Positions 8,512 through 34,149 of a DNA stretch of 64,000 bases are shown one piece after another. The DNA is from Hydrogenophaga aromaticivorans. GTDB lineage: Bacteria; Pseudomonadota; Gammaproteobacteria; Burkholderiales; Burkholderiaceae_C. The DNA lies in assembly GCF_013387465.1 (NCBI RefSeq), contig NZ_VYGV01000007.1, positions 120,549 to 184,548 on the forward strand, given 5' to 3'. The notes beneath the pieces were generated by a model that saw only the letters and a list, made by a program, of their open reading frames with translations, did not search any database and was not told the origin of the DNA. How positions within the stretch are numbered: the stretch's first letter is position 1; every line of letters starts with the position of its first letter. The position numbers and the translations under genes were made by a program.

Positions 8512-8606
8512 ACCGCGCCGCGCCCAAGGGCGCGTCACCCCCTCAAGGGGGCGGCACTGGCGACCCGGCAAAGCCGGTTCCGCGGCGCCCTTGGTGAGCT
8601 TCCCCT
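8512..8606 (+). repeat. structured intergenic repeat, copy a (after fbp)
   Basis: In order: CGCGCCC-AA-GGGCGCG, a C-run/G-run hairpin CCCCCTCAAGGGGG, CCGGC-AAA-GCCGG, TTCCGCGG, and a tail containing GCTTCCCCTC. It is the only copy in which the outer variable stem around the AAA hairpin is poorly formed. It is in the sense of fbp and starts five bases after its stop. Confidence 0.85.
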
Positions 8607-8639
8607 CTGCTGAACTGATTTTGTTTTTTGGAGAACTTC

Positions 8640-9518
8640 ATGTCTGAACGCCATCCCATCATCGCCATCACGGGCTCGTCGGGCGCAGGTACGTCCACCG
8701 TCACCCGCACCTTCCAGAACATCTTCCGCCGCGAGAACGTGACCGCCGGCATCATCGAGGGCGACAGTTTCCACCGCTACGACCGCAAGGAAATGAAGGT
8801 CAAGGCGGCTGAGGCCGAGAGAGCCGGCAACAACAACTTCAGCCACTTCGGCGCCGAGGCCAACCTGTTCGGGGAGATCGAGAACCTGTTCCGCACCTAC
8901 AGCGAAACCGGCCAGGGTAAGTGCCGCAAATACCTGCACAACGCCGAAGAGGCAGCGCCCTACAAGCAGGAACCGGGCACGTTCACCGCCTGGGAAGACC
9001 TGCCCCAGGGCACCGACATGTTGTTCTACGAAGGCCTGCACGGCGCCGTGGTCACGCCCGAGCACAACGTGGCGCAGTACCCGGATCTGCTGGTCGGCGT
9101 GGTGCCCGTGATCAACCTGGAGTGGATCCAGAAGCTCTACCGCGACAAGAACATGCGCGGCTACAGCGCCGACGCGGTGACCGACACCATCCTGCGCCGC
9201 ATGCCCGACTACGTGAACTACATCACCCCGCAGTTCCAGCACACGCACGTGAACTTCCAGCGTGTGCCGATCGTGGACACCAGCAACCCCTTCGTGGCGC
9301 GCGACGTGCCCACCGCCGACGAGAGCATGGTGGTGATCCGTTTTGCCCAGCCCAAGGGCATCGACTTCCAGTACCTGCTCAACATGATCAACGGTTCCAT
9401 GATGAGCCGTGCCAACACCATCGTGGTGCCGGGCGGGAAGATGGAGCTGGCAATGCAGCTGATCTTCACGCCGTTCATCTGGCGGATGGTGGAACGCAAG
9501 AAGCGCGTCATGAATTGA
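8640..9518 (+). CDS. prk: phosphoribulokinase
   Basis: A 292-residue proteobacterial-type phosphoribulokinase (CbbP), which makes the RuBisCO substrate RuBP from ribulose-5-phosphate and ATP. With RuBisCO it is diagnostic of the Calvin cycle. The P-loop variant GSSGAGTS is at residues 12-19, followed by the conserved [10 protein letters not shown] substrate region. The ATG at 8640 has TTGGAGAA just upstream; the in-frame ATG at 8628 lies in that ribosome site and is less likely. It is flanked by structured repeats on both sides. Confidence 0.97.
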
Positions 9519-9615
9519 CCCCCCCGCGCCGCGCCCAGGGGCGCGTCACCCCCCAGGGGGCAACGCGAGTGGCCCGGCAAAGCCGGCTCCACCGCGTTCC
9601 CGGTCGGAGTCACTT
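9519..9615 (+). repeat. structured intergenic repeat, copy b (after prk)
   Basis: It begins on the base after the prk stop. It carries CCGCGCCGCGCC, GCGCGTCACCCCCC, the CCGGC-AAA-GCCGG hairpin, and an outer stem AACGCG (9562-9567) with CGCGTT (9593-9598). The tail CGGAGTCAC resembles that of copy g (after ppc). It is in the sense of prk. Confidence 0.88.
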
Positions 9616-9667
9616 CACTCGACCGGCCATTGAGACACGAGACAAACATCCGTCACGAGGACACACC

Positions 9668-11752
<2,085 letters not shown>

Positions 11753-11754
11753 AC

Positions 11755-11843
11755 CACCCCCGTCGCTGCGCTCCGCCCCTCAAGGGGCAGCGCCTGCGGC
11801 CTGGCAAAGCCAGTTCCGCGGCGCTTCTGGGCCAGCTTCCCCT
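11755..11843 (+). repeat. structured intergenic repeat, copy c (after tkt)
   Basis: It begins two bases after the tkt stop. It has CGCCCCTCAAGGGGC and a CTGGC-AAA-GCCAG hairpin, in which both sides changed relative to the CCGGC/GCCGG form. The outer stem is AGCGCC (11789-11794) with GGCGCT (11820-11825). The tail GCTTCCCCTC matches copy a. The first hairpin is degenerate. Confidence 0.85.
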
Positions 11844-11855
11844 CATCGAACCTGA

Positions 11856-13623
<1,768 letters not shown>

Positions 13624-13637
13624 TCCGGGTGATCGCC

Positions 13638-14837
13638 ATGAAATTCCTCCGATTCAGCGACGTGTGTGCCAGCGGCTTTGCCAGCGGCAAACGTATCTTC
13701 ATCCGCGCCGACCTCAACGTGCCGCAGGACGACGCGGGCAACATCACCGAAGACACGCGCATCCGCGCCAGCATCCCCGCGATCCAGATGGCGCTGGACG
13801 CCGGTGCCGCCGTCATGGTGACCTCGCACCTGGGCCGTCCTACCGAAGGCGAATTCAAACCTGCCGACTCATTGACTCCTGTCGCGGCCCGCATGGGCCA
13901 GCTCATGGGTCGCAACATCCGCGTCGTCGCCAACTGGGTGGACGGCGACTTCTCCGTGGCGCCCGGTGAGGTGGTGATGCTGGAGAACTGCCGTCTGAAC
14001 AAAGGCGAGAAGAAGAACAGCCCCGAACTCGCCCAGAAGCTCGGTGCCTTGTGCGACATCTTCGTGCACGACGCCTTCGGCACCGCACACCGCGCCGAAG
14101 GCAGCACCTACGGCATCGCCGAGACCGCGCCGATCGCCTGCGCCGGCCCGCTGCTCGCCGCCGAGATGGACGCCATCGGCAAGGCCCTGGCCAACCCGAA
14201 GCGCCCGCTGATCGCCATCGTCGCCGGCAGCAAGGTGAGCACCAAGCTCACCATCCTGCAGGCGCTGGCGAAAAACGTGGACGGCCTGATCGTTGGCGGC
14301 GGCATCGCCAACACCTTCATGCTCGCCGCCGGTCTGAAGATCGGCAAGAGCCTGGCCGAACCCGACCTGATCGGCGAAGCCAAAGCCGTGATCGACGCCA
14401 TGAAAGCGCGCGGCGCGGCGGTGCCGATCCCGACCGACGTGGTCTGCGCCAAGAGCTTCAGCCCCGACGCAGTGGCCACGGTCAAGGCCGCCACCGACGT
14501 GGCCGACGACGACCTGATCCTGGACATCGGCCCTGAGACCGCGCAGCTGCTGGCCGAACAACTCAAGAAGGCCGGCACCATCGTCTGGAACGGCCCGGTG
14601 GGCGTGTTCGAGTTCGCCGCCTTCGAGAACGGCACCAAGGTCATCGCGCACGCGATCGCCGAGAGCAGCGCCTTCAGCATCGCCGGTGGTGGCGACACCT
14701 TGGCGGCGATCGCCAAGTACGGCATCGAGAAGGACGTGGGTTACATCTCCACCGGTGGTGGCGCCTTCCTCGAAGTGCTGGAGGGCAAGACACTACCGGC
14801 CTTCGAGGTGTTGGCGCGCAGAGCCGAGACCCCCTGA
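13638..14837 (+). CDS. pgk: phosphoglycerate kinase
   Basis: A 399-residue Pgk (CbbK), the ATP-consuming step that phosphorylates 3-phosphoglycerate in the Calvin cycle. The N-domain has IRADLNVPQ and [12 protein letters not shown]. The hinge and nucleotide domain have [18 protein letters not shown] and the Gly-rich GGGDTLAA. The ATG at 13638 is preferred to the GTG at 13629, which would add only three residues. It lies 14 bases after gap, indicating tight coupling. Confidence 0.97.
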
Positions 14838-14874
14838 TTTCCGACTTCAACTCATCTTTCCAAGGAAATTCCCC

Positions 14875-15942
14875 ATGGCACTCATCTCCCTTCGCCAGCT
14901 GCTCGACCACGCCGCCGAGCACAACTACGGCCTGCCGGCCTTCAACGTCAACAACATGGAGCAGGTGCAGGCCATCATGCAGGCGGCCGACAAGGTGAAC
15001 AGCCCCGTGATCCTGCAGGGATCGGCCGGTGCGCGCTCGTATGCGGGCGAGCCCTTCCTGCGCCATCTGATCTCGGCCGCGATCGAGATGTACCCCCACA
15101 TCCCCGTCTGCATGCACCAGGACCACGGCGCCGCGCCCGCCATCTGTTTCCGCTCCATCCAGTCGGGCTTCAGCTCGGTGATGATGGACGGCAGCCTGCT
15201 GGCCGACGGCAAGACGCCGTCGAGCTACGAGTACAACGTCAATACCACCAAGCAGGTGGTGGACCTGGCCCACGCCTGCGGCGTGTCGGTCGAAGGTGAA
15301 CTCGGTTGCCTGGGTTCGCTGGAAACCGGCAAGGCCGGCGAAGAGGACGGCCACGGCGCCGAAGGCGAGATGGACCACTCCATGCTGCTGACCGACCCCG
15401 ACGAAGCCGCGGACTTCGTGAGCAAGACCCAGGTGGACGCGCTGGCCATCGCCATCGGCACCAGCCACGGCGCCTACAAGTTCAGCAGCAAGCCCAGCGG
15501 CAAGGTGTTGCGCATCGACCGCGTGAAAGAGATCCACCAGCGCATTCCCAACGTGCACCTGGTGATGCACGGTTCGTCCAGCGTGCCGGAAGACTGGCTG
15601 GCCATCATCAACCAGTACGGTGGCGACATGGGCGTCACCTACGGCGTGCCGGTGGAAGAGATCGTGGAAGGCATCCGGAACGGCGTGCGCAAGGTCAACA
15701 TCGACACCGACCTGCGCATGGCCAGCACCGGCGCGATCCGCAAGCACCTGGCCGAAGACCGCAAGAACTTCGACCCGCGCAAGTTCTACAAGGAAGCCAC
15801 CAAGGCGATGCAGGCGATCTGTGCAGCACGCTACGAGGCCTTCGGTGCCGCCGGCATGGCCAGCAAGATCACCCAGGTGCACAGCCTGGAGACGATGCAG
15901 AAGCGCTACGACAAAGGTGAGCTCGCCGCCAAGGTGGCCTGA
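14875..15942 (+). CDS. fba: fructose-bisphosphate aldolase class II
   Basis: A 355-residue class II, zinc-dependent aldolase (CbbA). It starts [19 protein letters not shown], with AAGGAAA just upstream. Zinc and substrate motifs include [28 protein letters not shown] and KVNIDTDLR. It condenses triose phosphates, and erythrose-4-phosphate with DHAP, in the regenerative phase. It is the last gene of the cbb operon. No pyruvate kinase gene lies between pgk and fba, unlike the glycolytic arrangement seen in many relatives. Confidence 0.96.
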
Positions 15943-15974
15943 GCCAATCGCGAGGGAGCAGCGACAGCCCCTCC

Positions 15975-16078
15975 GGCGCGAAATGTCCCAACCCAGGATG
16001 CGGTGGAACCGGCTTCGCCGGGCCACTCGCATCGCCCCTTGGGGGGTGACGCGCTGAAAGCGCGGCGCGGGGGGAGGG
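15975..16078 (-). repeat. structured intergenic repeat, copy d (tandem, distal)
   Basis: Read on the minus strand it has CCCCCCGCGCCGC, a first hairpin GCGC-TTTCA-GCGC, CCCCCCAAGGGG and CCGGC-GAA-GCCGG. The outer stem is GATGCG (complement of 16028-16033) with CGCATC (complement of 15997-16002). It follows copy e in the same sense, so the dihaem cytochrome gene is trailed by two copies. It also lies downstream of fba on the opposite strand. Confidence 0.85.
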
Positions 16079-16097
16079 TAAATCTGTCTGCCAAAGA

Positions 16098-16190
16098 AGG
16101 GAAGCCCGCCCAGCACACGCCGAAGATCCGGCTTCGCCAGTCCAAGGGCGTGGTCCTCCTGGGGGGAAGCCGCACAGCGGCGCAGGGGGG
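16098..16190 (-). repeat. structured intergenic repeat, copy e (tandem, proximal)
   Basis: On the minus strand it starts five bases after the cytochrome stop. The sequence is divergent (CTGGC-GAA-GCCGG in the central hairpin). The outer stem CACGCC (complement of 16147-16152) with GGCGTG (complement of 16116-16121) is perfect and different from every other copy. The tail GGCTTCCCTT matches copies a and c. Confidence 0.75.
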
Positions 16191-16195
16191 AACCT

Positions 16196-16819
16196 CTACT
16201 TGCTGCTGACGTACTCAGCAACAGCCGCCATCTCCAGCTCCGTCATCTTCTCCGCCACCACATGCATCACCGCGTTGTCGTTCGTGCGGTCGCGCTTGTT
16301 GAACGATTTCAGCTGGGTGTGGATGTAGCCTGAGAACTGGGTCGCCAGTCGGGGCAGGTTGGCTGCGCCCTCGGCGTTGGTACCGTGGCAGTTCACACAG
16401 GCTGGCACGCCGCTGAACTTGTTGCCGTTGTGAAAGATGTAGCGGCCCATGGCGGCGAGTTGCGGGTCCTTGGGCTCCTCGCGCGGGATCGACATCTTCT
16501 CGTAGTACTTGCCCAGCGCCAGCATCTCGTCGGGCGTGAGCTTGCTCACCATCTCGACCATGGCGGTGCTCTTGCGTTGGCCACTCTTGAAAGCCGTGAG
16601 CTGCTTGGCGATGTACTCGGCGTGCTGTCCGGCCAGACGCGGAAACACCTCGCTGGTGGACTCACCCTGCGCTCCGTGGCACAGGAAGCAGGAGCCGCCC
16701 GCGATCTTCTTGGCACGGGCCTCGTCGGCCTGAGCGAAGGCACTCATCGAGAAAAGGAGCGCCACGGCCAACGTGAATGTCGTGCGGACGGTGTTCAGGG
16801 GCGAAAGGCGAGCGTTCAT
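16196..16819 (-). CDS. periplasmic dihaem cytochrome c (c4-like)
   Basis: A 207-residue exported protein with a signal peptide ending about residue 30 (LLFSMSAFAQA). It has two haem-attachment motifs, CFLCH (44-48) and CVNCH (141-145), each in a cytochrome-c fold, the arrangement of cytochrome c4. Likely role: carry electrons from the sulfur-oxidising enzymes to the terminal oxidase. It lies 118 bases downstream of soxF on the same strand, separated by repeat copy f. The ATG at 16819 is set by the signal peptide. The family is clear; the partner is inferred from context. Confidence 0.88.
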   Translation of the reverse strand: MNARLSPLNTVRTTFTLAVALLFSMSAFAQADEARAKKIAGGSCFLCHGAQGESTSEVFPRLAGQHAEYIAKQLTAFKSGQRKSTAMVEMVSKLTPDEMLALGKYYEKMSIPREEPKDPQLAAMGRYIFHNGNKFSGVPACVNCHGTNAEGAANLPRLATQFSGYIHTQLKSFNKRDRTNDNAVMHVVAEKMTELEMAAVAEYVSSK

Positions 16820-16842
16820 GTCCGGACAGGATGAAGAGGAGA

Positions 16843-16937
16843 GGGCACGCCGCCGGCGGCAGCCGCGGAACCGGCTTTGTCGGGTCGCTGGCTGCGCCCC
16901 CCTTCCAGGGGGGTGACGCCGCAGGCGGCGCGGGGGG
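16843..16937 (-). repeat. structured intergenic repeat, copy f (after soxF)
   Basis: On the minus strand it starts on the base after the soxF stop. It has CCCCCCGCGCCGC, a first hairpin GCCGC-CT-GCGGC, CCCCCCTGGAAGGGGGG and CCGAC-AAA-GCCGG (one mismatch). The outer stem is GCAGCC (complement of 16890-16895) with GGCTGC (complement of 16859-16864). Confidence 0.88.
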
Positions 16938-18218
16938 TCAAGCCAAGGTGTCAGCCCAGATGTTGCGTGCCCAGGCGTGGGCATAGCGGCCTTCGAGTTC
17001 GCTGGCCGCCACCGACACACCGCCCGAGCCAGGCACCGTGAGCATGGTCTTCTTCTCGGCGTCGTAACGGTGCACGCTGGCCACGTGCACCACGTCTTCG
17101 TCGGTCACGAAGCTGTAGCAGGTGTTGGCGTAGATCGGCAGCGAGAGCGGCTCCTTGCCTTCCAGCAGAGCCACCACGGCCGCGGCACAGGTCTTGCCGT
17201 GCTGGTTGGCCATGTGGCCGGACTTGGGCATGCCGGGCGCGATCTGGATCGAGTCGCCGAGCACGTGGATGTTCTTCCTGGCCTTGGATTCGAAGGTGAG
17301 GAAGTCGACATCGCACCAGCGGTTGTTGGCGGTGGCCAGGCCGGTGGTGACGGCGATGGCGCCAGCGCGCATGCTGGGCACCACGTTGGCGACACCGGCC
17401 TTGAAGTCGTCGTTGAACTCGAATTTCAGCGTGTTGGTGGCCGCGTCCACGTCGACCACCTTGTGCTTGGGGCGGTACTCGATCATGCCGTCGTAATGGT
17501 CCTTCCAGGCCTTCATGAACAGGCCCTTCTTGGACTGGATGTCGTCGTTGGCGTCGAAGATCACGACCTTGCTCTTGGGCTTGGCCTTCTTGAAGTAGTT
17601 GGCGACCATGCAGGCGCGCTCGTAGGGGCCGGGCGGGCAGCGGTACGGCGCGAGCGGGATCGAGAGCGCATACACGCCACCGTCGGGCATGGCTTCGAGC
17701 TGTTTGCGCAGCGCCACGGTCTGGGCGCCGGCTTTCCAGGCGTGCAGCACCTTGTCTTGCGCACCGGGCTTGGCCATGCCGGGCAGGGTGTCCCACATGA
17801 AGTCGATACCGGGCGAGAGGATCAGGCGGTCATACGGCAGTTCGCCGCCGCTGGCGAGTTTCACCATGCGCTTCTCAGCGTCGATGCTGGCGACCATGTC
17901 GCGCACGACTTTCACGCCGTGGCGCTTTTCCAGGTTGTCGTAGGGGGTGGTGATGTCGGCGATGGTCTTGCTGCCCTGGATCACCAGGTTGGAAATCGGG
18001 CAGGAGACGAAAGCCGGATTCGGCTCGATCAGCGTGACGTTGATGCCGTAGTCGGAGAACAGTCGCACGTATTTGGCGGCGGTGGCGCCACCGTAGCCGC
18101 CTCCGACGACGATGACCTTCGCGCCACTGGCGCCCCCGGCAGCACAGCCACCCAGCAAGCCCAGACCGGCCACCGCCGAACCGGCGCCCAGCGTTTGTAC
18201 AAATTGACGACGTTGCAT
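16938..18218 (-). CDS. soxF: sulfide dehydrogenase flavoprotein subunit (SoxF/FccB)
   Basis: A 426-residue FAD-dependent oxidoreductase of the flavocytochrome c sulfide dehydrogenase family. A twin-arginine type leader (MQRRQFVQTLGAG) leads to LLGGC, a lipobox-like end with Cys25, so it may be a Tat-exported lipoprotein. The FAD-binding VVGGGYGG follows at 37-44. FVSCPISN and NTCYSF contain Cys residues in positions expected for the redox-active pair. It oxidises sulfide in the periplasm and passes electrons to the small cytochrome subunit encoded 11 bases upstream. Together with the divergent sox operon this is the soxEF unit. Confidence 0.92.
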   Translation of the reverse strand: MQRRQFVQTLGAGSAVAGLGLLGGCAAGGASGAKVIVVGGGYGGATAAKYVRLFSDYGINVTLIEPNPAFVSCPISNLVIQGSKTIADITTPYDNLEKRHGVKVVRDMVASIDAEKRMVKLASGGELPYDRLILSPGIDFMWDTLPGMAKPGAQDKVLHAWKAGAQTVALRKQLEAMPDGGVYALSIPLAPYRCPPGPYERACMVANYFKKAKPKSKVVIFDANDDIQSKKGLFMKAWKDHYDGMIEYRPKHKVVDVDAATNTLKFEFNDDFKAGVANVVPSMRAGAIAVTTGLATANNRWCDVDFLTFESKARKNIHVLGDSIQIAPGMPKSGHMANQHGKTCAAAVVALLEGKEPLSLPIYANTCYSFVTDEDVVHVASVHRYDAEKKTMLTVPGSGGVSVAASELEGRYAHAWARNIWADTLA

Positions 18219-18229
18219 GTTGGGGCTCC

Positions 18230-18532: not shown

Positions 18533-18573
18533 CGTCACCTCCAGAAGAGTGGTTGGGAAAAACACCATCTAAA

Positions 18574-18603
18574 ACTGTAGCAGGGGGTGTTCTGGCGCGC
18601 AAA
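18574..18603 (-). promoter_or_regulatory. possible promoter of soxE-soxF
   Basis: On the minus strand TTTGCG (complement of 18598-18603) and TACAGT (complement of 18574-18579) are 18 bases apart, about 42 bases upstream of the soxE start. The match to a sigma-70 promoter is moderate. Confidence 0.35.
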
Positions 18604-18667
18604 GCATCAGTACTTCCGCATATTTAGATGATTGATCCTAGCACCGTGATCTGGCCCTCCAAACCGT

Positions 18668-18730: not shown

Positions 18731-18836
18731 GGCGGGCGAGGCGTTTGCACGGGTGCCCGCTTTGGAACCCGGTGCGGGGTGCCATTTGTCAGAAAAGTGC
18801 GAGGATTCGGGTTTACACTAATCTGTATATAGGCAT

Positions 18837-23939: not shown

Positions 23940-23954
23940 ACAGGAGACCACGAC

Positions 23955-24605: not shown

Positions 24606-24645
24606 AGAAAACCACGCCCACAGGACGCCTGACCTGTGGTGCGGC

Positions 24646-24672
24646 CTGCTCCCGGTGATGAACCGGGAGCAG
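24646..24672. other. perfect 11-base hairpin between soxX and soxB
   Basis: CTGCTCCCGGT (24646-24656) pairs without mismatch to ACCGGGAGCAG (24662-24672) across a GATGA loop. No T tract follows, so it is more likely an RNA stability or processing structure than a full terminator. It lies in the 123-base soxX-soxB gap. Confidence 0.7.
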
Positions 24673-24728
24673 GATGTCGGCAAAAAAATTTGGCGCAAAT
24701 ATCAGCAATCAATTGTTAAGGAATGTTT

Positions 24729-26453
24729 ATGAGCTTCAGTCGTCGTGAATTCATGCAGGTGCTCGCCGTGGCCAGCGCGGGCGGCATGGCTCTGGACCAC
24801 AAGGATGTGCTGGCCGGCAAGCCCGGCGCGGGCCAGGCGATGTACGACCTGCCCAAGTTCGGCAACGTCAGCTTCCTGCACTTCACCGACTGCCATGCGC
24901 AGCTGATGCCGATCTACTTCCGCGAGCCCAATGTGAACCTGGGCGTGGCCGAAGCCGTGGGCCGCCCACCGCACATCGTGGGCGAGAGCCTGCTCAAGCA
25001 CTTCAAGATCCGCCCCGGGACCCCCGAGGCCCATGCCTTCACCTACCTGAATTTCGAAAGCGCAGCCAAGACCTACGGCAAGGTCGGCGGTTTCGCGCAC
25101 CTGGCCACGCTGATCAAGCAGATGCGTGCCAGCCGCCCCTACGCCATGCTGCTCGACGGTGGCGACACCTGGCAGGGCAGTGCCACCGCGCTCTGGACCA
25201 ATGGCCAGGACATGGTCGACGCCTGCAAGCTGCTGGGCGTGAACGCCATGTGCCCGCACTGGGAATTCACGTTGGGCGAAAAGCGCGTGCAGGAGATCGT
25301 CGAGAAGGACTTTGCCGGCAAGCTCGACTTCCTGGCGCAGAACGTCAAGACCAACGACTTCGGTGACCCGGTTTTCAAACCCTACGTCATCAAGGAAATG
25401 AACGGCGTGCCGGTGGCCGTGATCGGTCAGGCTTTCCCCTACACGCCCATCGCCAACCCCGGTTACATGGTGTCGAACTGGACCTTCGGTATCCAGGACG
25501 AGAACATGCAGAAGATGGTGGACGAGGCGCGCTCCAAGGGCGCGCAGGCGGTGGTCGTGATCTCGCACAACGGCATGGACGTGGACATCAAGATGGCCTC
25601 GCGCGTGACCGGCATCGACGCCATTCTCGGCGGCCACACGCACGATGGCATGCCCGCGCCCATCGTGGTGAAAAACGCCAAGGGCCAGACCCTGGTGACC
25701 AACGCCGGCTCCAACAGCAAGTTCCTCGGCGTGCTCGACTTCGACGTGCGCGGTGGCAAGGTGCAGGACTTCCGCTACAAGTTGCTGCCCGTGTTCGCCA
25801 ACCTGCTGCCGGCCGATACCGAAATGCAGACCTACATCGACAAGGTGCGCGCGCCCTACAAGGCCAAGCTGGACGAGAAGCTCGCCGTGTCCGAAGGCCT
25901 GCTGTACCGCCGCGGCAACTTCAACGGCTCGTGGGACCAGCTCATCGTCGACGCGCTGATGGAAGTCAAGGGCGCCGACATGGCGTTCTCGCCCGGCTTC
26001 CGCTGGGGTACCACCATCCTGCCGGGCCAGGCGATCACGCGCGAACTCATGATGGACCAGGTGGCGATCACCTACCCGACCAGCACGCTCACCGAAATGA
26101 GCGGCGAGACCATCAAGACCGTGCTGGAAGACGTCTGCGACAACCTGTTCAACCCCGACCCCTACTACCAGCAGGGCGGCGACATGGTGCGCGTGGGCGG
26201 TCTGGCCTACACCTGCGACCCCAAGGCCGGCTCGGGCAAGCGCATCAGCAACATGATGCTCAAGGGCAAGACCATCGAAGCGGGCAAGACCTACAAGGTG
26301 GCCGGCTGGGCGCCGGTGGCCGAAGGTGCCAAGGGCGAGCCGATCTGGGACGTGATGGAGACCTATTTCAAGAGCCACAAAACCATCACCACGCGCAAGC
26401 TCAACACCCCCAAAGTGGAAGGCATGCAGGGCAATCCAGGCATAGCCGCCTGA
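24729..26453 (+). CDS. soxB: thiosulfohydrolase SoxB
   Basis: A 574-residue dinuclear manganese enzyme of the calcineurin/5'-nucleotidase family that hydrolytically releases sulfate from SoxYZ-bound sulfur. A Tat leader (SRREFMQVLAVASAGG) is present. Metal motifs are FLHFTDCHAQ, GGDTWQG, SHNGMDVD and GGHTHDG. The C-terminal 5'-nucleotidase domain is complete. ATG 24729 is preferred over 24723 because AAGGA at 24718-24722 is six bases away; it would abut the other ATG. Confidence 0.96.
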   Translation: MSFSRREFMQVLAVASAGGMALDHKDVLAGKPGAGQAMYDLPKFGNVSFLHFTDCHAQLMPIYFREPNVNLGVAEAVGRPPHIVGESLLKHFKIRPGTPEAHAFTYLNFESAAKTYGKVGGFAHLATLIKQMRASRPYAMLLDGGDTWQGSATALWTNGQDMVDACKLLGVNAMCPHWEFTLGEKRVQEIVEKDFAGKLDFLAQNVKTNDFGDPVFKPYVIKEMNGVPVAVIGQAFPYTPIANPGYMVSNWTFGIQDENMQKMVDEARSKGAQAVVVISHNGMDVDIKMASRVTGIDAILGGHTHDGMPAPIVVKNAKGQTLVTNAGSNSKFLGVLDFDVRGGKVQDFRYKLLPVFANLLPADTEMQTYIDKVRAPYKAKLDEKLAVSEGLLYRRGNFNGSWDQLIVDALMEVKGADMAFSPGFRWGTTILPGQAITRELMMDQVAITYPTSTLTEMSGETIKTVLEDVCDNLFNPDPYYQQGGDMVRVGGLAYTCDPKAGSGKRISNMMLKGKTIEAGKTYKVAGWAPVAEGAKGEPIWDVMETYFKSHKTITTRKLNTPKVEGMQGNPGIAA

Positions 26454-26513
26454 TCGATATGCCCCTGGCGTGAACAGGCGGATGGCGCGTTTGATATGCT
26501 CCCCCCGCCTGTT
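26446..26513 (+). other. competing inverted repeats after soxB
   Basis: CCGCCTG (26446-26452, spanning the soxB stop), AACAGGCGG (26473-26481) and CCGCCTGTT (26505-26513) can pair in two mutually exclusive ways, the second followed by TATTCT. This could be a weak terminator or leader switch ahead of the small lipoprotein gene. The sequence is visible; the role is inferred. Confidence 0.4.
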
Positions 26514-26532
26514 TATTCTCCAAGGAATTTTG

Positions 26533-26760
26533 ATGATCAAGAACGCAGGGATGCTGATCGCGGTGCTGGTGCTCGCGGGTTGTGCATCTTCGAAACCCTT
26601 TTGGGCCAAGCCCAACGTCTCCTCGGATGACACCTACACCCAGTTGTCAGAGTGCCGTTTTCAGGTGGGCCTGAACAAGGTCGCCAAATCGGAACAGGAA
26701 CTCATGGTGGCGCATTGCATGCGCGGCAAAGGCTTCCGCCTGCTGGCCAACGACAGCTGA
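26533..26760 (+). CDS. small lipoprotein of unknown function
   Basis: A 75-residue protein. The leader MIKNAGMLIAVLVLAGC is a lipoprotein signal with Cys17 (LAGC). The mature part of about 58 residues has two further Cys residues (LSECRFQVG and VAHCMRGKGF) that may form a disulfide. AAGGA at 26522-26526 supports the ATG at 26533 over an upstream frame extension. It is the last gene before a strong terminator and may or may not belong to the sox operon. I do not recognise a named family; the CMRGKGF end occurs in small outer-membrane lipoproteins of this order. Confidence 0.7.
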   Translation: MIKNAGMLIAVLVLAGCASSKPFWAKPNVSSDDTYTQLSECRFQVGLNKVAKSEQELMVAHCMRGKGFRLLANDS

Positions 26761-26787
26761 GCACCCGTGGGGCGCTGAGTCACCAGC

Positions 26788-26828
26788 AAAAAATCCCCTC
26801 GCGGCGCGGCTGTGAAGGGGATTTTTTT
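26788..26828 (+). terminator. intrinsic terminator ending the sox region
   Basis: AAAAAATCCCC pairs with GGGGATTTTTT around a GC-rich loop, giving A and T runs on both sides, so it can work in either direction. It lies 28 bases after the lipoprotein stop. Confidence 0.85.
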
Positions 26829-26896
26829 GTTTGTGTCCCCGATGTGTCTCCATGAAAGCGCTGGCTGAGCGGACACCGGGGGACATCCAGAAACAC

Positions 26897-26919
26897 AAAA
26901 GCCCCGGAGTACGGGGCTT
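26897..26919 (-). terminator. terminator of the tRNA-Ser transcript
   Basis: On the minus strand AAGCCCCG (complement of 26912-26919) pairs with CGGGGCTT (complement of 26899-26906) over a five-base loop, followed by TTTGTG. It lies about 45 bases beyond the tRNA 3' end. Confidence 0.65.
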
Positions 26920-26964
26920 GTGGGTGGTCTTGTGGACTCCTTGGGAAGTCCGGAAACCTGTCTG

Positions 26965-27056
26965 TGGCGGAGAAGGAGGGATTCGAACCCTCGGTACAGT
27001 TGAAACTGTACGCCGGATTTCGAATCCGGTGCATTCGACCACTCTGCCACCTCTCC
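26965..27056 (-). tRNA. serU: tRNA-Ser (anticodon CGA)
   Basis: A class II tRNA with encoded CCA. The acceptor strand GGAGAGG pairs with CTTCTCC. The anticodon stem CCGGA/TCCGG holds the loop TTCGAAA, giving anticodon CGA for UCG codons. The long variable arm GTACAGT/ACTGTAC identifies serine, and the T loop GGTTCGAATCC is canonical. The E. coli-style gene symbol is by analogy. Confidence 0.96.
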
Positions 27057-27148
27057 GCGTCGAAGCTCAGTATTCTAGCAGGAGACGGGCGCTGCATTTT
27101 TCAGGCCTTCCGGTGTGACAATGGTCCACCGTCTGTTCGTGGTTATTC

Positions 27149-28609
27149 ATGCTTGTCGACACCCAACCCGCGACCCACCAGCATCTGCCCGCTTCGCCCG
27201 AGGTGAGAGACCAGTGGGTGAACGCCCAGTTGATCGGGGTCCTGATGGACAACATGGTCCCATCGCTGCTGGCGGCGACATTGGCGCTGCCGGTGTTGAT
27301 TTTCATGATGGCCGGTGAGGTGGACTTTGTTTCCTTGCTGATCTGGACGGGGCTTTTGGTGACCATGCTGGTCTACCGCTACCGGCTGATCGGGATCTAC
27401 CAGTTGCGCTACGACAGCTCCGAAGGGCCGCAGCGCATGGCGTTTGTCGAGCGCTACCAGTGGACCTGGGGTGTCATGGGTTTCCTCTGGGGTGGCGGGG
27501 TGATGCTGAGCTATCTGAAGGCCAGTCCGGCGACGCAGTTCGTCTGCGGCATCGTGGTGCTGGGGCAGGGCTTGCTCACCTTGACGGCCTTCAGTGCCTA
27601 TTTGCCGGTGTTTCGCCGGTATGTGCATGCGCTCGTGCTCTCGGTCTTCCTGGGCCTTGCGCTCAACACCTTGCGGGCCACCGATCCAACACCCATGGCG
27701 GAGCAGAGCCTGGCTTTGATGGCTTTGCTGATGGTGTTCTGGTGGCTTTTGCTGGTGGCGGGGAATCGCCTGCATCAGATCTACCGCGCCAGTTTCGAAC
27801 TGCAGTTTTCCAACCAGGAGCTGATCGATTCGCTGACCCAGCAGACGCGCGCTTCGATCCGGGCCGTCGCGACCAAGAACCGGTTTCTGGCCTCGGCTGC
27901 TCACGACCTGCGTCAGCCGGTGCATGCCCTGAGCCTGTACGCAGACTGGCTGGCCACCGAGCCGGAGATGGCGCGCGATATCTCGCCACGGATACTTCAA
28001 TCGACCCGGGCCATCAACGAGCTGTTTGACTCGTTGTTTGACCTGACACGCATCGATGCGGGCAACTACAAGGTGCGCTTGCAGAACGTCGACGTGTTGC
28101 AGCTTTTCGCCGAGCTGGCCACGCAGTTTGAGCCCGTTGCGGCGGGCAAGTCTCTCAAGTTCAGGACCTATGCCAAGCCCACGACCCTGTGGGCCGATCC
28201 GGTGGTGTTGCGCCGGATTCTGGGCAATCTGTTGTCGAACGCGTTTCGTCACACGCGGCGCGGTGGCGTGCTGCTGGGCCTGAGGCGCCGGGAGGACGTG
28301 CTGGTCTTTGAAGTCTGGGACACCGGTGTGGGGATTGCGCGCGAACACCAGCAGGCGATTTTTCAGGAGTTCTTCAGGGTGTCGCAACACCAGGGAACCG
28401 AAGACAGTCTGGGTCTGGGCCTGACCATCGTTTCCAAGCTGACCACGCTGATGGGTTACCAGCTGGCGCTGTCCTCCGAAGCGGAGCGGGGCAGTGTATT
28501 TCGTGTGCTGCTGCCCGCCTACACGCAGAAGTCAGAGAAGTCAGCGCTGGAGACCGCGACAACACCGGATGTCGTGGTGCCGGGGTCGGCGGCACAGGCT
28601 TCCGGCTGA
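27149..28609 (+). CDS. membrane sensor histidine kinase
   Basis: A 486-residue kinase. Residues about 25-215 hold five or six hydrophobic segments (PSLLAATLALPVLIFMMAG, SLALMALLMVFWWLLLVAG) with little periplasmic material, so it may sense within the membrane. After a linker comes a dimerisation domain with the H-box SAAHDLRQPVHAL. The ATPase domain has NLLSNAFRHT (N box), DTGVGIA and GLGLTIV. There is no receiver domain. The probable partner is the convergent response regulator 31 bases away. The signal is unknown. Confidence 0.88.
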   Translation: MLVDTQPATHQHLPASPEVRDQWVNAQLIGVLMDNMVPSLLAATLALPVLIFMMAGEVDFVSLLIWTGLLVTMLVYRYRLIGIYQLRYDSSEGPQRMAFVERYQWTWGVMGFLWGGGVMLSYLKASPATQFVCGIVVLGQGLLTLTAFSAYLPVFRRYVHALVLSVFLGLALNTLRATDPTPMAEQSLALMALLMVFWWLLLVAGNRLHQIYRASFELQFSNQELIDSLTQQTRASIRAVATKNRFLASAAHDLRQPVHALSLYADWLATEPEMARDISPRILQSTRAINELFDSLFDLTRIDAGNYKVRLQNVDVLQLFAELATQFEPVAAGKSLKFRTYAKPTTLWADPVVLRRILGNLLSNAFRHTRRGGVLLGLRRREDVLVFEVWDTGVGIAREHQQAIFQEFFRVSQHQGTEDSLGLGLTIVSKLTTLMGYQLALSSEAERGSVFRVLLPAYTQKSEKSALETATTPDVVVPGSAAQASG

Positions 28610-28640
28610 AGCAGCCCGCTTCAGGGGATACCAGCGAAGC

Positions 28641-29234
28641 TCAGAGGTCGAGCAGGCCCGCGGTGCGCGCCAGATGGCTGGCCTGAGAGCGGCTCTTGAC
28701 GTTGAGGCGGCGGAACAGGCGCCACAGGTGCACCTTGACGGTGTGTTCGCTGATCTGCAGTTGTTCGGCGATGTCGCGGTTGGACAGTCCGCGGTCCAGC
28801 ATGACGAGCAACTGCTTCTGCCGTTTGGACAGCTTCTCAGGAATGGTGGGTGCGTTTTCGTCTTCGGGTTCTTCGGTCAGGAATTCGCGCAGCACCTTGC
28901 CGATCTGGGCGGCACCGGCCGATTTTTCGACGTAGGCATCGGCACCCGCTTCCCGGGCCAGGTCTTCGTAGTCGGAAGCTGGCGACGCGGACAGCACGAT
29001 CAGCGATGTGTCGGGCAGCATCTGGCGCACTTCGCGCACACCGGAAACGCCGTGGGTGTCGGGCAGCTTCAGGTCGAGGCAGACCAGCTCAGGCTCCCCG
29101 TGTTCAGCGATCGCCTTGCTCACGGTGGCCAGTCGCTCCAGTTCAACCACCTGGGTGGAAGACCGGAGACGACGCAGAAGCATGACGACTGCCTCGCGCA
29201 TCAGCGGATGATCGTCAATGACAAAGATACTCAT
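28641..29234 (-). CDS. LuxR/NarL-type response regulator
   Basis: A 197-residue two-domain regulator. The receiver has the acidic pair in FVIDDHPLM and the phospho-acceptor Asp in LVCLDLKLPD, with Lys in VEKSAGAA. A short acidic linker (EEPEDENAPT) leads to a C-terminal helix-turn-helix (LSKRQKQLLVMLDRGLSNRDIAEQL, SEHTVKVHLWRLFRRLNVKS in two parts). It is encoded tail-to-tail with the histidine kinase, an uncommon arrangement for a cognate pair. Targets are unknown. Confidence 0.88.
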   Translation of the reverse strand: MSIFVIDDHPLMREAVVMLLRRLRSSTQVVELERLATVSKAIAEHGEPELVCLDLKLPDTHGVSGVREVRQMLPDTSLIVLSASPASDYEDLAREAGADAYVEKSAGAAQIGKVLREFLTEEPEDENAPTIPEKLSKRQKQLLVMLDRGLSNRDIAEQLQISEHTVKVHLWRLFRRLNVKSRSQASHLARTAGLLDL

Positions 29235-29476
29235 GGCAGGATGTGCTGTTTAAGTTTTGTATTCAGAGTGACAGCATATCGGCATTGGCAGCTTTTGGCG
29301 ATAGCAAAAAGCGCACTTTTGTACACCTTGTTTTTAGTTTTTGATGCCCGGGTTCCATGAAGTTGGGAACTCGGTAAACACCGCGGTGTGCTGCCTTGTT
29401 GGGGTCGTGCCTGGTGGGCGTTCGCTCCCGACCGCTATTGTCGCAGGTTCGCGAATGTGTAACCCGGTCGGCGGTG

Positions 29477-30772
29477 TCAGTCAGCTGGCGTTGAAAACCA
29501 ACCGAGGGCCTGTGCCAGCACCTGCGGATCGGCCGCCACGATCAGCTGGCTTTGCAGTTCGGCGATGGCGCCAGCACCTTGCTGCTGCAAACGGGTGACC
29601 GTTTGTGCCGCTTCCCGCGGCGACGCAAAGCCGGTGCTTTGCAGCAGCAGGTGGCCTTGGGCGTCGAGCAGCTTGAAATAGAACTGGCCGTCCTGTTCCC
29701 GGTATTGCTTGAAGCTGGGTGCCGCCGCCCGAGAGGCTTTGGTCGCCTTGGTCGCGGTCGGCCGGCTGTCCAGCGGGCGAAGGCCCACCGCATGGCGCAG
29801 CCGCGCAGTGAACGGTGTGGCGATGGCGCGCGCCTTGTGTGCACCGGCTTGCAGCGTGCGTTCGATTTTTCCCGGGTCCTGGATCAGTTCGTCGTAGATG
29901 GTGCGCATGGGGGCGATTTCCGCGTCCAGGCGTTCGAACAGCAACTGCTTGGCGTCGCCCCAAGCGATGCCGTCGGCGTAGGCCTTGGCCAGAACGGCGG
30001 TCTCTTCAGCGCTGGCAAAGGCCTGGTAGAGCTGGAAAAGGGCCGAGCCCTGGGTGTCCTTGGGCTCGCCGGGCGTGCGCGAGTCGGTGACGATGCCCAT
30101 GATGAGCTTGCGCAACTGTTCCTTGGGGGCAAACAACGGAATGGTGTTGTCGTAGCTCTTGCTCATCTTGCGGCCGTCGAGCCCGGGCAGGGTGGCCACG
30201 TGGTCTTCAATCGCCGCTTCGGGCAGGGTGAAGTGTTCGCCGTAGAGGTGGTTGAAGCTGGACGCGATGTCGCGCGCCATCTCGATGTGTTGGATCTGGT
30301 CCCGGCCCACCGGCACCTGGTGGGCGTTGAACATCAGGATGTCGGCCGCCATCAGCACCGGGTACATGAAGAGGCCGGCGGTGACCCCGTTGTCGGGCTC
30401 GTCGCCGCTGGCGGTGTTCTTGTCGACCGAGGCCTTGTAGGCGTGGGCCCGGTTGAGCAGGCCCTTGCCGGTCACGCAGGTGAGCAGCCAGGTGAGTTCG
30501 GGGATCTCGGGGATGTCGGACTGGCGGTAGAACGTGACCTTCTCCGGGTTCAGGCCGCAGGCCAGCCAGGTGGCGGCGATTTCCAGCGTGGAACGCTGCA
30601 CGCGCGCTGGGTCACCGACCTTGATCAGCGCATGGTAGTCGGCCAGGAAGTAGAAGCTCTCGACCGCGGCCAGGCGGCTGGCGCGCACCGTGGGGCGGAC
30701 GGCGCCCACGTAGTTGCCCAGGTGCGGTGTGCCCGAAGTGGTGATGCCGGTGAGGACGCGTTGGGTGCTCAT
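29477..30772 (-). CDS. trpS: tryptophanyl-tRNA synthetase with C-terminal extension
   Basis: A class I synthetase charging tRNA-Trp. The HIGH-type motif is TSGTPHLGNYVGAV and the KMSKS loop is GRKMSKSYDNT. At 431 residues it is about 100 longer than E. coli TrpS. Beyond the catalytic and anticodon domains, a linker rich in Ala, Lys and Arg leads to a segment GQFYFKLLDAQGHLLLQSTG, which looks like the small DUF1508/YegP fold. ATG 30772 is preferred over TTG 30778. It is the last gene of the minus-strand group that starts with rnm. Confidence 0.94.
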   Translation of the reverse strand: MSTQRVLTGITTSGTPHLGNYVGAVRPTVRASRLAAVESFYFLADYHALIKVGDPARVQRSTLEIAATWLACGLNPEKVTFYRQSDIPEIPELTWLLTCVTGKGLLNRAHAYKASVDKNTASGDEPDNGVTAGLFMYPVLMAADILMFNAHQVPVGRDQIQHIEMARDIASSFNHLYGEHFTLPEAAIEDHVATLPGLDGRKMSKSYDNTIPLFAPKEQLRKLIMGIVTDSRTPGEPKDTQGSALFQLYQAFASAEETAVLAKAYADGIAWGDAKQLLFERLDAEIAPMRTIYDELIQDPGKIERTLQAGAHKARAIATPFTARLRHAVGLRPLDSRPTATKATKASRAAAPSFKQYREQDGQFYFKLLDAQGHLLLQSTGFASPREAAQTVTRLQQQGAGAIAELQSQLIVAADPQVLAQALGWFSTPAD

Positions 30773-30790
30773 GAACAAGAAGGTCTGGAA

Positions 30791-31459
30791 TTAAAACAGC
30801 AGGAAGCGCAGCGGCGTCAGCAGCAACTCGATCGCGCCACCGGTGAACATCATCAGCGGGCGCAGCCAGAGGTTGCCCACGACGCCGGTGATGACCAGGG
30901 CCATCACGATGAAGAAGCCCCAGGGTTCGACACGCGAGACCGGGTAAGCGAGGTGGTTGGGCAGCAGGCCCACCAGAATGCGCCCGCCGTCCAGCGGTGG
31001 CAGCGGAAACAGGTTGAAGGCAAACATCACCAGATTCACCAGCACGCCGGCGCGGCACATCTCCAGGAAGAAGCGTTCTTCTACCCCGGCGGCCACCAGC
31101 AGGTACAGGCCCACGGTCCACATCACCGCCTGCACCAGGTTGGCGCCCGGGCCGGCCAGGGCGACCCAGACCATGTCGCGTTTCGGGTTGCGCAAGCGCC
31201 CGAAATTCACCGGGACCGGCTTGGCGTAACCAAACAGGAAGGCGCCCGAGGTGGCGAAGTACAGCAACAGCGGCATCGCGATCGTGCCGACCGGGTCGAT
31301 GTGTTTGAGCGGGTTGAGCGTGATGCGGCCCAGCATGTGGGCGGTGTTGTCGCCGAAGTGCCTTGCCGCATAGCCGTGAGCGGCTTCGTGCACCGTGATG
31401 GCAAACAGCACCGGCAGGGCGTACAGGGCAACGGTTTGAATGATCTGGGCGAAATCCAT
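30791..31459 (-). CDS. site-2 protease family (M50) membrane metalloprotease
   Basis: A 222-residue integral membrane protein. The zinc motif HEAAH is at 24-28 in the first membrane segment. The third zinc ligand is in NLFPLPPLDGGRIL. Five to six hydrophobic segments and no PDZ domain place it in the short stand-alone group of M50 peptidases, whose substrates are mostly unknown. It lies 18 bases upstream of trpS on the same strand. Confidence 0.9.
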   Translation of the reverse strand: MDFAQIIQTVALYALPVLFAITVHEAAHGYAARHFGDNTAHMLGRITLNPLKHIDPVGTIAMPLLLYFATSGAFLFGYAKPVPVNFGRLRNPKRDMVWVALAGPGANLVQAVMWTVGLYLLVAAGVEERFFLEMCRAGVLVNLVMFAFNLFPLPPLDGGRILVGLLPNHLAYPVSRVEPWGFFIVMALVITGVVGNLWLRPLMMFTGGAIELLLTPLRFLLF

Positions 31460-31545
31460 GAGGGGCGTTGGGCGGGAAAAGACCTATTGTCCCAGATGGG
31501 GTGCGGTGCCCGTGGCTGCAGGGCCCCGCGGCGCAGGTATCGGGT

Positions 31546-32181
31546 TTACAGGCCCAGTGTGGCCAGCGACCCGCGCCCTTCGCGCACCAGCTCGGGTTCT
31601 CCGCCCGTGCCCATGGGCGTGAGATCGACGACGGTCGTGGGTTCGAGCGGACAGGCCCCGGCATCGATGACGCCAGCGAGATCGTGTTCGAAACGATCGC
31701 GGATGTCCTGCGCATCGTTGAGGGGATGCGCCTCGCCGGGCGGGATCAGCGTGGTGGCCAGCAGGGGGCCGTTGTGCAGGTCCAGCAAGGCCAGCAGGGC
31801 GTTGTGGTCCGGCACGCGCAGGCCAATCGTCTTGCGCGAGGGGTGGCTCAGTCGGCGCGGCACCTCCTTGCTGGCTTCGAGGATGAAGGTGAAGGGGCCC
31901 GGCGTGGCCTGCTTGAGCAGGCGGTACTGGCGGTTGTCCACCTTGGCGTAGCTGGCGAGCTCGCTCAGGTCGCGGCAAAGCAGGGTGAGGTGGTGTTTGT
32001 CGTCGACCTGGCGGATGCGGCGCAGCCGGTCGGCCGCAGCCTTGTCGTCAATGTGGCAGACCAGCGCGTAGCTGGAGTCGGTGGGTACCGCCAGCACGCC
32101 GCCCCGTTCGAGCAGTTGCACCGCCTGCTTGAGCAGCCGGGGTTGCGGGTTCTCGGGATGGACTTCGAAATACTGGGACAT
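31546..32181 (-). CDS. Sua5/YciO/YrdC-family protein (threonylcarbamoyl-AMP synthase-like)
   Basis: A 211-residue protein consisting of a YrdC-like fold. Motifs are LAVPTDSSYALVC, the Lys/Arg-rich loop RRIRQVDDKHHLTLLC, ATPGPFTFILEAS and KTIGLRVPDH. The family binds nucleotides and dsRNA; TsaC/Sua5 members make threonylcarbamoyl-AMP for the t6A modification of tRNA. This one resembles the YciO subgroup, whose activity is weaker or different, so the precise role is open. ATG 32181 begins the conserved domain; the open frame further upstream lacks a good start. Confidence 0.85.
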   Translation of the reverse strand: MSQYFEVHPENPQPRLLKQAVQLLERGGVLAVPTDSSYALVCHIDDKAAADRLRRIRQVDDKHHLTLLCRDLSELASYAKVDNRQYRLLKQATPGPFTFILEASKEVPRRLSHPSRKTIGLRVPDHNALLALLDLHNGPLLATTLIPPGEAHPLNDAQDIRDRFEHDLAGVIDAGACPLEPTTVVDLTPMGTGGEPELVREGRGSLATLGL

Positions 32182-32228
32182 GGTGCGTATTGTGCGCGGC
32201 CCGTGGGCACAACCACGGCACCGCTGGT

Positions 32229-33137
32229 TCAGGCCTCGGGTGGTTCCACGGGCAGGCGGTGTTCGCGCGCGGTGATCCAGCTGGCGGTGGCACCGCAGAC
32301 CACGATGAGCACGATGCCGGTCAGTTCCAGCCGACCCGGAATGTGGTTGAACACCAGCCAGCCGCACAACATGGCAAACCCGATCTGGGTGTACAGGTAA
32401 GGCGTGAGTGTGGACGCTGGCGCGCGCGCGAACGCGAGGATGAGCAGAAAGTGACCGACCGTGCCCATTAGGCCCACCAGGCAGAGCAGGGCGAAGGTGT
32501 TGGTGTCCGGGATGGTTTGCCAGACCAGGGGCAGAATCGCAGTGGCCACCAGTGCGCCAACCCAGCCGGTGTAAAAGTGCATGGTCATCGGGTCTTCGGT
32601 GCGTGCCATCTGGCTGGTGAGGATCTGGAACCAGGCATAGGTGACCACCATCAGCAACGGCAACAGGCTGGCCCAGCCGATCACGTCACCACCCGGCTGG
32701 AACACCAGCAGGGCACCCACGAAACCGCCACCCACCAGGGCCCAGCGCATGGGTGCGACGCGCTCTTTCAGGAACAGCGCCGCCAGCAGGGTGACCACCA
32801 GCGGCGTGGTCATGACAAAGGCGGTGAATTCGCCCACGGGCATGTATTGCACGCTGATGAACGACAGCACGCTGACCATCAGCAGCAGACAACCGCGCAG
32901 CACCTGGAAGCGCGGGTGCCGGGTGAGCAGCAGGCTGCGTCCGCGCATGGGGAGCATGACGGTGCTGACCGCCACGGCCTGGAACACGTAGCGGAACCAG
33001 ACCGCCACCAGGATGGGCACGTAGGCACCGACGTACTTGACCGCGGTGTCCAGCACCGCGAAGCAGGCCACCGCCATCACCAGGAACGTGATGCCCAACG
33101 CGGCCTGCGCGCCGGGTCGGGCAACGGCGGCGCTCAT
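32229..33137 (-). CDS. EamA-family (drug/metabolite transporter superfamily) permease
   Basis: A 302-residue inner-membrane protein with about ten hydrophobic helices arranged as two EamA repeats (FISVQYMPVGEFTAFVMTTP in the first, VGHFLLILAFARAPAST in the second). These are usually metabolite or amino-acid exporters; the substrate cannot be deduced. Its ATG overlaps the rnm stop (TGATGA), indicating coupling. The C-terminus is cytoplasmic and short. Confidence 0.88.
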   Translation of the reverse strand: MSAAVARPGAQAALGITFLVMAVACFAVLDTAVKYVGAYVPILVAVWFRYVFQAVAVSTVMLPMRGRSLLLTRHPRFQVLRGCLLLMVSVLSFISVQYMPVGEFTAFVMTTPLVVTLLAALFLKERVAPMRWALVGGGFVGALLVFQPGGDVIGWASLLPLLMVVTYAWFQILTSQMARTEDPMTMHFYTGWVGALVATAILPLVWQTIPDTNTFALLCLVGLMGTVGHFLLILAFARAPASTLTPYLYTQIGFAMLCGWLVFNHIPGRLELTGIVLIVVCGATASWITAREHRLPVEPPEA

Positions 33138-33991
33138 CAGTGGAAACGCGCTGCGAGCTGCTCCCACACCGGTGTGACGCTGCCCGGCAGGTCGGGCAGC
33201 TTGCCCAGATCGGTGTGGCTTTCGGTCGGGCTGTGGAAGTCGCTGCCACGTGAGGCGAGCAGTTCGAACTCGCTGCAGAACCCCGCGTATTTGACATAGT
33301 CGGCCGGCCCGTGGGCGCCGGTCACCACCTCCACGCCCTGACCGCCGTGGGCCTTGAATTCGGAGAAGAGCGCGAACTCTTCGTTGGCGGTGAGGTTGTA
33401 GCGGCCGGGGTGGGCGATCACGGCCACACCTCCGGCACCCGTGATCCAGCCCACGGCGTCGCGCAGGGTGGCCCATCGGTGCGGCACGTAACCGGGTTTG
33501 CCTTCGGCCAGGTATTTCCGGAACACGGCATTGGTGTCGGTGCTATAGCCCGCCTCCACGATGTAGCGCGCGAAGTGCGAGCGTGAGATCAGTTCCGGGT
33601 TGCCGACGTATTTGAGTGCGCCTTCGTAGACGCCCGGGATGCCCACGCGCGCCAGGTCGTCGCTCATGGCGCGCGCACGCTGCTCGCGCCCGCCACGGGT
33701 GTGGCGCAGGCCTTCGACCAGCGCCGGGTTGGCGTGGTCGAAACCCAGGCCCAGGATGTGCACGGTGACGTTGGCGAAGGTCACGGACACTTCTGCACCG
33801 GTGAGGTAGGGCAACCCCGCCTGTCGCGCGGCGGCGATGGCCCGGTCCTGGCCCCCGATCTCGTCGTGGTCGGTCAGTGACCAGAGTTCCACGCCGTTGG
33901 CTTTGGCACGCTGCGCCAGTTCCTCGGGTTTGAGGGTGCCGTCAGAGACGACGGAATGGCAATGGAGATCGGCGTTGAGGATGTGGGTCAC
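33137..33991 (-). CDS. rnm: PHP-domain phosphoesterase (RNase AM / nucleoside 3',5'-bisphosphatase)
   Basis: A 284-residue polymerase-and-histidinol-phosphatase domain protein of the YciV/RNase AM family, which trims 5' ends of rRNA and hydrolyses pAp. Metal motifs are ADLHCHSVVSDGTL, LTDHDEIGG, AVIAHPGRY and SRGSDFHSP. Length and motif order match the family. It heads a minus-strand group rnm-EamA-Sua5 family-M50-trpS. Confidence 0.9.
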   Translation of the reverse strand: MTHILNADLHCHSVVSDGTLKPEELAQRAKANGVELWSLTDHDEIGGQDRAIAAARQAGLPYLTGAEVSVTFANVTVHILGLGFDHANPALVEGLRHTRGGREQRARAMSDDLARVGIPGVYEGALKYVGNPELISRSHFARYIVEAGYSTDTNAVFRKYLAEGKPGYVPHRWATLRDAVGWITGAGGVAVIAHPGRYNLTANEEFALFSEFKAHGGQGVEVVTGAHGPADYVKYAGFCSEFELLASRGSDFHSPTESHTDLGKLPDLPGSVTPVWEQLAARFH

Positions 33992-34050
33992 GGCTTCATT
34001 TTAGGTTTGAAGGGTTCAACGCGCAGAACGGACCAGCAAACCCCGTAACA

Positions 34051-34149
34051 GCAGAGGTGACTCCAACCCAGAACACCGCGGAACGGGCTTTGCCCGGCCG
34101 CTGGTGTTGCCCCCCTCAGGGGAGTGACGCCGCAGGCGGCGCGGGGGGG
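34051..34149 (-). repeat. structured intergenic repeat, copy g (after ppc)
   Basis: On the minus strand it begins on the base after the ppc stop. It has CCCCCCGCGCCGC, GCCGC-CT-GCGGC, a C-run/G-run hairpin and CGGGC-AAA-GCCCG (both sides changed). The outer stem is AACACC (complement of 34103-34108) with GGTGTT (complement of 34072-34077). The tail GGAGTCAC matches copy b. It is 18 kb from the other copies. Confidence 0.88.

Follow-up and report, generated by a model that had tools for sequence, protein, structure and literature searches.

In Escherichia coli, REP elements act as hairpin barriers at the 3' ends of mRNAs. There and in Pseudomonas, the REP and BIME repeats number in the hundreds; they are short extragenic palindromes located near 3' ends, with inverted pairs among them. 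In the same bacterial order as the genome studied here, the nearest repeat in print is BRE (Beta-proteobacterial repeat element), which by its published description is of a size similar to that of the element discussed below (Hot et al. 2011, PMC3110155). Here we analyze a stretch of 64,000 nucleotides from Hydrogenophaga aromaticivorans (contig NZ_VYGV01000007.1, positions 120,549 to 184,548; henceforth the window), which carries seven copies of a three-hairpin repeat set directly after stop codons or in tandem behind such a copy. Copies in the rest of the genome share a covarying fold and, in the majority of cases, begin at the stop codon of the upstream gene in its sense orientation. Our analysis gives about an even chance to the reading that these constitute a family of dispersed, non-autonomous repeats, which would act as hairpin barriers in 3' untranslated regions much like REPs.

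A covarying three-hairpin fold

The core of the element spans 83 nt. Its C-run leader of approximately 11 nt is followed by three hairpins, of which the second pairs a C-run with a G-run and the third is long, with a variable outer stem and the tip GGC-RAA-GCC; by eye, many copies bear an extra tail of about 25-40 nt. A covariance model (R1) built from an alignment of the window's seven copies, as the original prediction had proposed, recovers 150 or more copies from this genome of 5.63 Mb. A systematic sample of 1.2 Mb, made up of sixty 20-kb stretches of eight large contigs, has 59 matches above 46 bits, two at 35 bits and a further six at or below 25.6 bits; scaled up, this sample yields an estimate of about 280 copies genome-wide.

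Combining the 59 copies from the genome sample with the seven from the window gave a set of 66 copies. In their model-fitted alignment 97.1% of the cells are paired, both sides have changed in 16 of the 24 pairs and the covariation score is 0.354, compared with 0.140 for shuffled and at most 0.113 for slid alignments. A model-free check used ungapped segments around the terminal hairpin in 62 of the 66 copies (the other four lack the search motif): 94.4% of the cells are paired versus 31-48% when slid, and 144 cells have changed on both sides versus at most 27 when slid. These 62 copies display 29 distinct outer stems; because stems recur in subfamilies, one of them 13 times, the covarying cells are not independent events. 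Single-sequence folding of the seven window copies is only modestly better than that of dinucleotide shuffles (z from -1.1 to -2.9), and the evidence for the fold is the covariation over the 66 copies rather than such folding. By this measure, the selection for a fold that had been predicted from seven copies holds genome-wide.

All seven of the predicted copies are recovered in the window. Their R1 scores range from 64.6 to 93.4 bits, with the next window match at 26.8 bits; these scores are not independent, since the same seven copies trained the model. On the forward strand, copy A (8510..8594) begins 3 nt past the stop of the class 1 fructose-bisphosphatase gene (7409-8506), copy B (9521..9603) 2 nt past that of the phosphoribulokinase gene (8640-9518) and copy C (11755..11830), which has a variant first hairpin, 2 nt past that of the transketolase gene (9668-11752). 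On the reverse strand, copy E (16111..16190) follows a cytochrome c gene (16196-16822, minus), 5 nt past its stop, and copy D (15992..16073) stands in tandem behind copy E on the same strand after a 37-nt gap. Copy F (16854..16938) overlaps by 1 nt (distance -1 nt) the stop of the gene for the flavoprotein of flavocytochrome c sulfide dehydrogenase (16938-18218, minus), and copy G (34067..34149) follows the phosphoenolpyruvate carboxylase gene (34150-36990, minus), 0 nt past its stop. Thus, stop adjacency in the window is as predicted, as are the six outer stems that had been quoted; the seventh copy, at 8510, has a mismatched outer stem. The motif CCGCGCCGC, which had been claimed for all seven, stands with the exceptions that it is absent from the copy at 11755 and altered in that at 16111.

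Placement at translation stops and turnover among relatives

With gene calls from a simple caller of our own, as opposed to a published one, 51 of the 66 copies begin between -3 and +14 nt from a sense stop and 56 within -40 to +30 nt (henceforth the stop rule); by chance, 3.0% of random 82-nt intergenic placements fall 0-14 nt past a sense stop. The copies are predominantly in the sense orientation (60/66). Among gaps of at least 100 nt, copies occupy 1 of the 114 divergent, 42 of the 255 co-directional and 12 of the 44 convergent ones. In 54 copies, pairing begins 9-35 nt beyond the stop, with a median of 14 and the middle half at 13-19 nt. The predicted sense orientation and stop adjacency thus hold across the genome, and also in other genera: 14 of 19 copies in a systematic sample from Pigmentiphaga kullae lie within -40 to +30 nt of a sense stop, as do 12 of 26 in a non-random set of best matches from Achromobacter and genome G098, where several of the misses are tandem copies. 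At ten Achromobacter, Bordetella and Pigmentiphaga loci inspected by eye with frames unchecked, the copy is preceded by a stop triplet in eight, and in one more such a triplet precedes the leading copy of a tandem.

The ten exceptions to the rule among the 66 copies were re-inspected. They include two antisense partners in pairs and four other antisense copies; one of these four is within a called gene and three (L064:10543, L078:5268, L032:7291) end 5-9 nt short of a called start codon, their G-run therefore being where the ribosome binding site would be. Of the remaining exceptions, two are in tandem behind another copy (by eye, a truncated one in one case), one is close to a called frame's 3' end and one, with a degenerate 5' part, is 88 nt past a stop.

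Copies also show preferred mutual arrangements. The sample contains six tail-to-tail pairs, with gaps of 50, 51, 50, 32, 52 and 82 nt, of which two occupy co-directional gaps with one arm antisense; there are no head-to-head pairs within 400 nt in it, and its one same-strand tandem is that of copies D and E. In Pigmentiphaga, eight readable pairs among the matches listed are 171-172 nt apart from start to start, and the other spacings in this list and in the set from Achromobacter, P. kullae and G098 range from 122 to 211 nt. Achromobacter has tandem arrays, for instance a tight tandem in L214 and one with a unit of 124 nt in L092. Five pairs underlie the idea that pairs are heterotypic, since 33 of the 66 copies stayed unclassified when their tails were typed by regular expression. 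At the Alcaligenaceae loci L102, L106, L107, L240:1170 and L242:12340, a copy truncated at the tip of the third hairpin appears to be joined via a purine-rich linker to a full copy; by eye, a junction similar to such a truncated-full fusion recurs among Alcaligenaceae loci.

The phyletic distribution of the family is patchy. A survey of the order with model R2 (E<=1e-4, best 15 candidates scored per genome) shows matches in 10 of 300 genomes and, among these best candidates, none in the other 290. Within the genus, 39 of 40 genomes have the family (this genome counted), and the copy number by R2 ranges from 0 to at least 114. Eighteen further genomes reached via named loci were searched at E<=0.01: each of four Pigmentiphaga genomes has at least 149 copies, five Achromobacter genomes have 4-33 and four of eight Bordetella genomes have 1-12, while the one Alcaligenes genome searched has no match. 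In the genus of B. hinzii, 5 of 15 genomes have 1-9 copies.

This variability extends to individual sites. The element is present at the phosphoenolpyruvate carboxylase stop in 3 of 25 relatives and at the sulfide dehydrogenase stop in 4 of 25; being thus present or absent at orthologous stops of close relatives, it disperses. At the latter stop, an intrinsic terminator is found in none of the four relatives with the element, nor in the window, as against 15 of the 21 relatives without it, the relatives at this locus not being independent of one another. G331, with a 98% identical sulfide dehydrogenase protein, has a terminator at that stop. The element copies there differ by whole stems, which could reflect conversion or replacement; the idea that an insertion at a single orthologous site was followed by compensatory change is unsupported. 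The fructose-bisphosphatase/phosphoribulokinase/transketolase junctions were compared in 20 relatives, one being unassessable per site owing to an early contig end (L321 upstream, L329 downstream): sense copies occur in two relatives at the upstream site and four at the downstream site, and antisense copies in two at the upstream site. The phosphoribulokinase frame of three relatives ends within the repeat. The element comes and goes, and can alter the very end of a gene.

Relation to described repeats and to RAYT transposases

The original prediction had known of no described family that matches the repeat, and had not named BRE. Consistent with this, Rfam release 15 has no repeat family at gathering score in the window (one tRNA only), and a literature search returned no printed match. 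The best Rfam score over 8400-17100 is a sub-threshold one of 27.2 bits for whalefall-1 (gathering 37), at 16029-16079 on the plus strand, opposite copy D.

As described in PMC3110155, BRE is approximately 75-91 bp long, GC-rich and tandem and is found in Bordetella and Comamonadaceae, with 13 of the 13 listed loci in co-directional or convergent gaps. The present family has comparable traits, namely the 83-nt core, a close tandem and the near-absence from divergent gaps (1/114). In contrast, BRE is reported to occur within coding sequences, and B. avium to have 8 copies of it, and the section of that paper on BRE mentions neither a stop-codon rule nor a covarying fold; the comparison is one by description. 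In G357 and G358 (putative B. avium, species unverified), the model of this family has 0 matches at E<=0.1. We first thought it likely that this family is BRE, and came to doubt it after this result and the finding of a second repeat family.

The second family has 17 matches per 1.264 Mb of this genome and none in the window (e.g. L049:17753-17833, L068:14566-14651 and L074:11711-11798), as found with a profile built from six of the copies later matched. It resembles the first in having a C-run leader, a first hairpin, a C/G-run hairpin and a long hairpin with a covarying outer stem; for 14 sequences and a hand-set structure, the covariation is 0.291 versus 0.124 shuffled and at most 0.104 slid. 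It differs in its sequence and in that 5 of the 17 copies are within called genes, a location also ascribed to BRE in some cases; 9 of the 17 are within -5 to 15 nt of a sense stop. G357 has two stretches of 47-50 nt, 74 nt apart (L350:12711-12834), between genes that by eye are dksA-like and hslV-like. We lean towards the second family as the better candidate for BRE, with the present family as a cousin, an unproven assignment; against equating the second family with the G357 repeat, its profile stays below the E 0.01 level in G357 and the exact sharing is just 23-25 nt. A second-family piece is also seen in the phosphoenolpyruvate carboxylase gene of G344 (L306, ~1473-1495), where a stretch of 87 nt interrupts the protein match at residue 625/626 without closing the frame, like an in-frame palindromic insert.

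Other described repeats are more distant. Whereas REP/BIME elements consist of one palindrome of 20-40 bp, this family has three hairpins in 83 nt and requires no RAYT. The RAYT-linked REPs, as characterized in the relevant parts of PMC2817692 and PMC3733652, have a GT(A/G)G head and a single 20-40 bp palindrome; GT(A/G)G is found near the 5' end in 4 of the 66 copies and anywhere in the core in 20. The Bor repeats of Bordetella (Petrillo et al. 2006, PMC1590033) are likewise stem-loops near coding regions but, as described there, measure 26-30 bp, a separation by description and not by consensus sequence. MITEs have terminal inverted repeats and a target-site duplication: the tail-to-tail pairs provide inverted ends, and most copies are single.

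Mobilization by a RAYT, which had also been proposed, was rejected, as bulk copies are present in Pigmentiphaga in the absence of a matching transposase: all four genomes with at least 149 copies have no PF01797 (Y1 transposase) match at E<=0.001. The six Achromobacter genomes have none at that threshold either. The suggested search for such a gene in H. aromaticivorans found a single Y1_Tnp gene, with no copy within 1.5 kb of it. A Y1_Tnp gene is present in 4 of 6 copy-bearing genomes of this bacterium's own family, and also in G093 and G234, which are copy-free among the best 15 candidates. The repeats presumably spread by means other than a RAYT.

Possible roles of the element

With its 5' end at the stop codon and in the sense of the gene, a copy would be the first element of the 3' untranslated RNA, and the copies are presumably transcribed with their genes. 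Under the hairpin-barrier reading, the fold would fix the mRNA 3' end and protect it from 3'-5' exonucleases, acting after Rho-dependent or downstream termination or cleavage. Two features appear to speak for such a role in RNA: the copies are in sense, and they start abruptly at the stop.

How the element relates to termination proper was examined across the genome. Reading of the element sequences shows no U-tract directly after the hairpins. A scan for a hairpin plus T-tract has hits in 6 of 48 element-bearing gaps, at least 96 nt past the stop; for gaps of at least 100 nt, intrinsic terminators are present in these 6 of 48 as against 38 of 268 other gene ends. Genome-wide, the element neither excludes nor accompanies intrinsic terminators, and its role as a general terminator replacement, suggested by the sulfide dehydrogenase locus, is unsupported.

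Several observations weigh against the hairpin-barrier reading. The stop rule fails for 10 of the 66 copies, for 5 of 19 in P. kullae and for 14 of 26 from Achromobacter and G098 (by our own gene calls), and 6 of the 66 run antisense to the gene that they adjoin or lie in, two of these being partners in pairs. The junctions that hold copies A and B are, by eye, mostly tightly packed in relatives lacking the element. The replacement of terminators at one locus is not general, because element-bearing ends have them about as often as others. Further, the comparison of G-U with A-C, which is indicative of selection on the RNA strand, gives a null result in this genome (27 vs 23) if one subfamily pair is excluded, as opposed to 50 vs 23 if it is included; a positive result comes only from the model-fitted alignments of other genomes (29:3 and 23:10). 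Hence, there is no clear signal of RNA-strand selection by this asymmetry in this genome.

The main rival, which we consider somewhat unlikely, is that the repeat is a functionless selfish element, its position and orientation being set by insertion preference together with the purging of harmful insertions, and its fold being required for spread at the DNA level. It would account for the range of 0 to at least 114 copies within one genus, the presence or absence at orthologous stops, the frames of three relatives that end within the repeat and the missing strand bias just described. The six tail-to-tail pairs, four of them with a gap of 50-52 nt and two in co-directional gaps with one arm antisense, also fit it. 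However, neutral retention alone would scatter copies across the gap rather than concentrate them at 0-14 nt in one sense, and a second family of other sequence has a similar preference for position (9/17 copies).

A role in translation, in which hairpins no more than about 15 nt from the stop would slow or stall the terminating ribosome and lower output, strikes us as decidedly unlikely. E. coli REPs near the stop are reported to affect the terminating ribosome, a rule quoted in the introduction of PMC5082802. The distribution of distances from stop to element would suit such control, as would the enrichment of non-TGA stops: in this genome's sample, TAA or TAG ends 18 of 54 element genes versus 163 of 1072 other genes (p=0.002), or 52 of the 289 element-free genes whose gap is at least 100 nt (p=0.016). 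However, the 12 element genes of P. kullae do not show this shift, and the first stem, which for the middle half of the copies starts 13-19 nt downstream of the stop, is near or beyond the edge of the ribosome as placed from the size of its footprint. That the element itself provides the stop codon was rejected as a rule, all three stops being used at element genes. It is very unlikely that the copies are partial terminators or attenuators within and at the end of operons: they stand in for intrinsic terminators at the sulfide dehydrogenase locus and populate co-directional and convergent gaps but hardly divergent ones, yet they lack a U-tract, show no genome-wide exclusion of terminators and stand between Calvin-cycle genes.

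We see a small chance for a broader, speculative view, in which the two sequence-distinct families, with their shared three-hairpin layout and preferred position, would belong to a Burkholderiales superfamily of mobile RNA-structured repeats set at translation stops by a RAYT-independent machinery that senses the end of the translated frame. The repeat raises the question of how it comes to sit exactly at coding ends without a RAYT. Its presence and absence at the same gene in close relatives amounts to a natural experiment, in which mRNA ends, stability and translation can be compared with and without the element. The family, missed by Rfam in the window, is a candidate 3'-end signal for GC-rich Burkholderiales with a sharp position rule.

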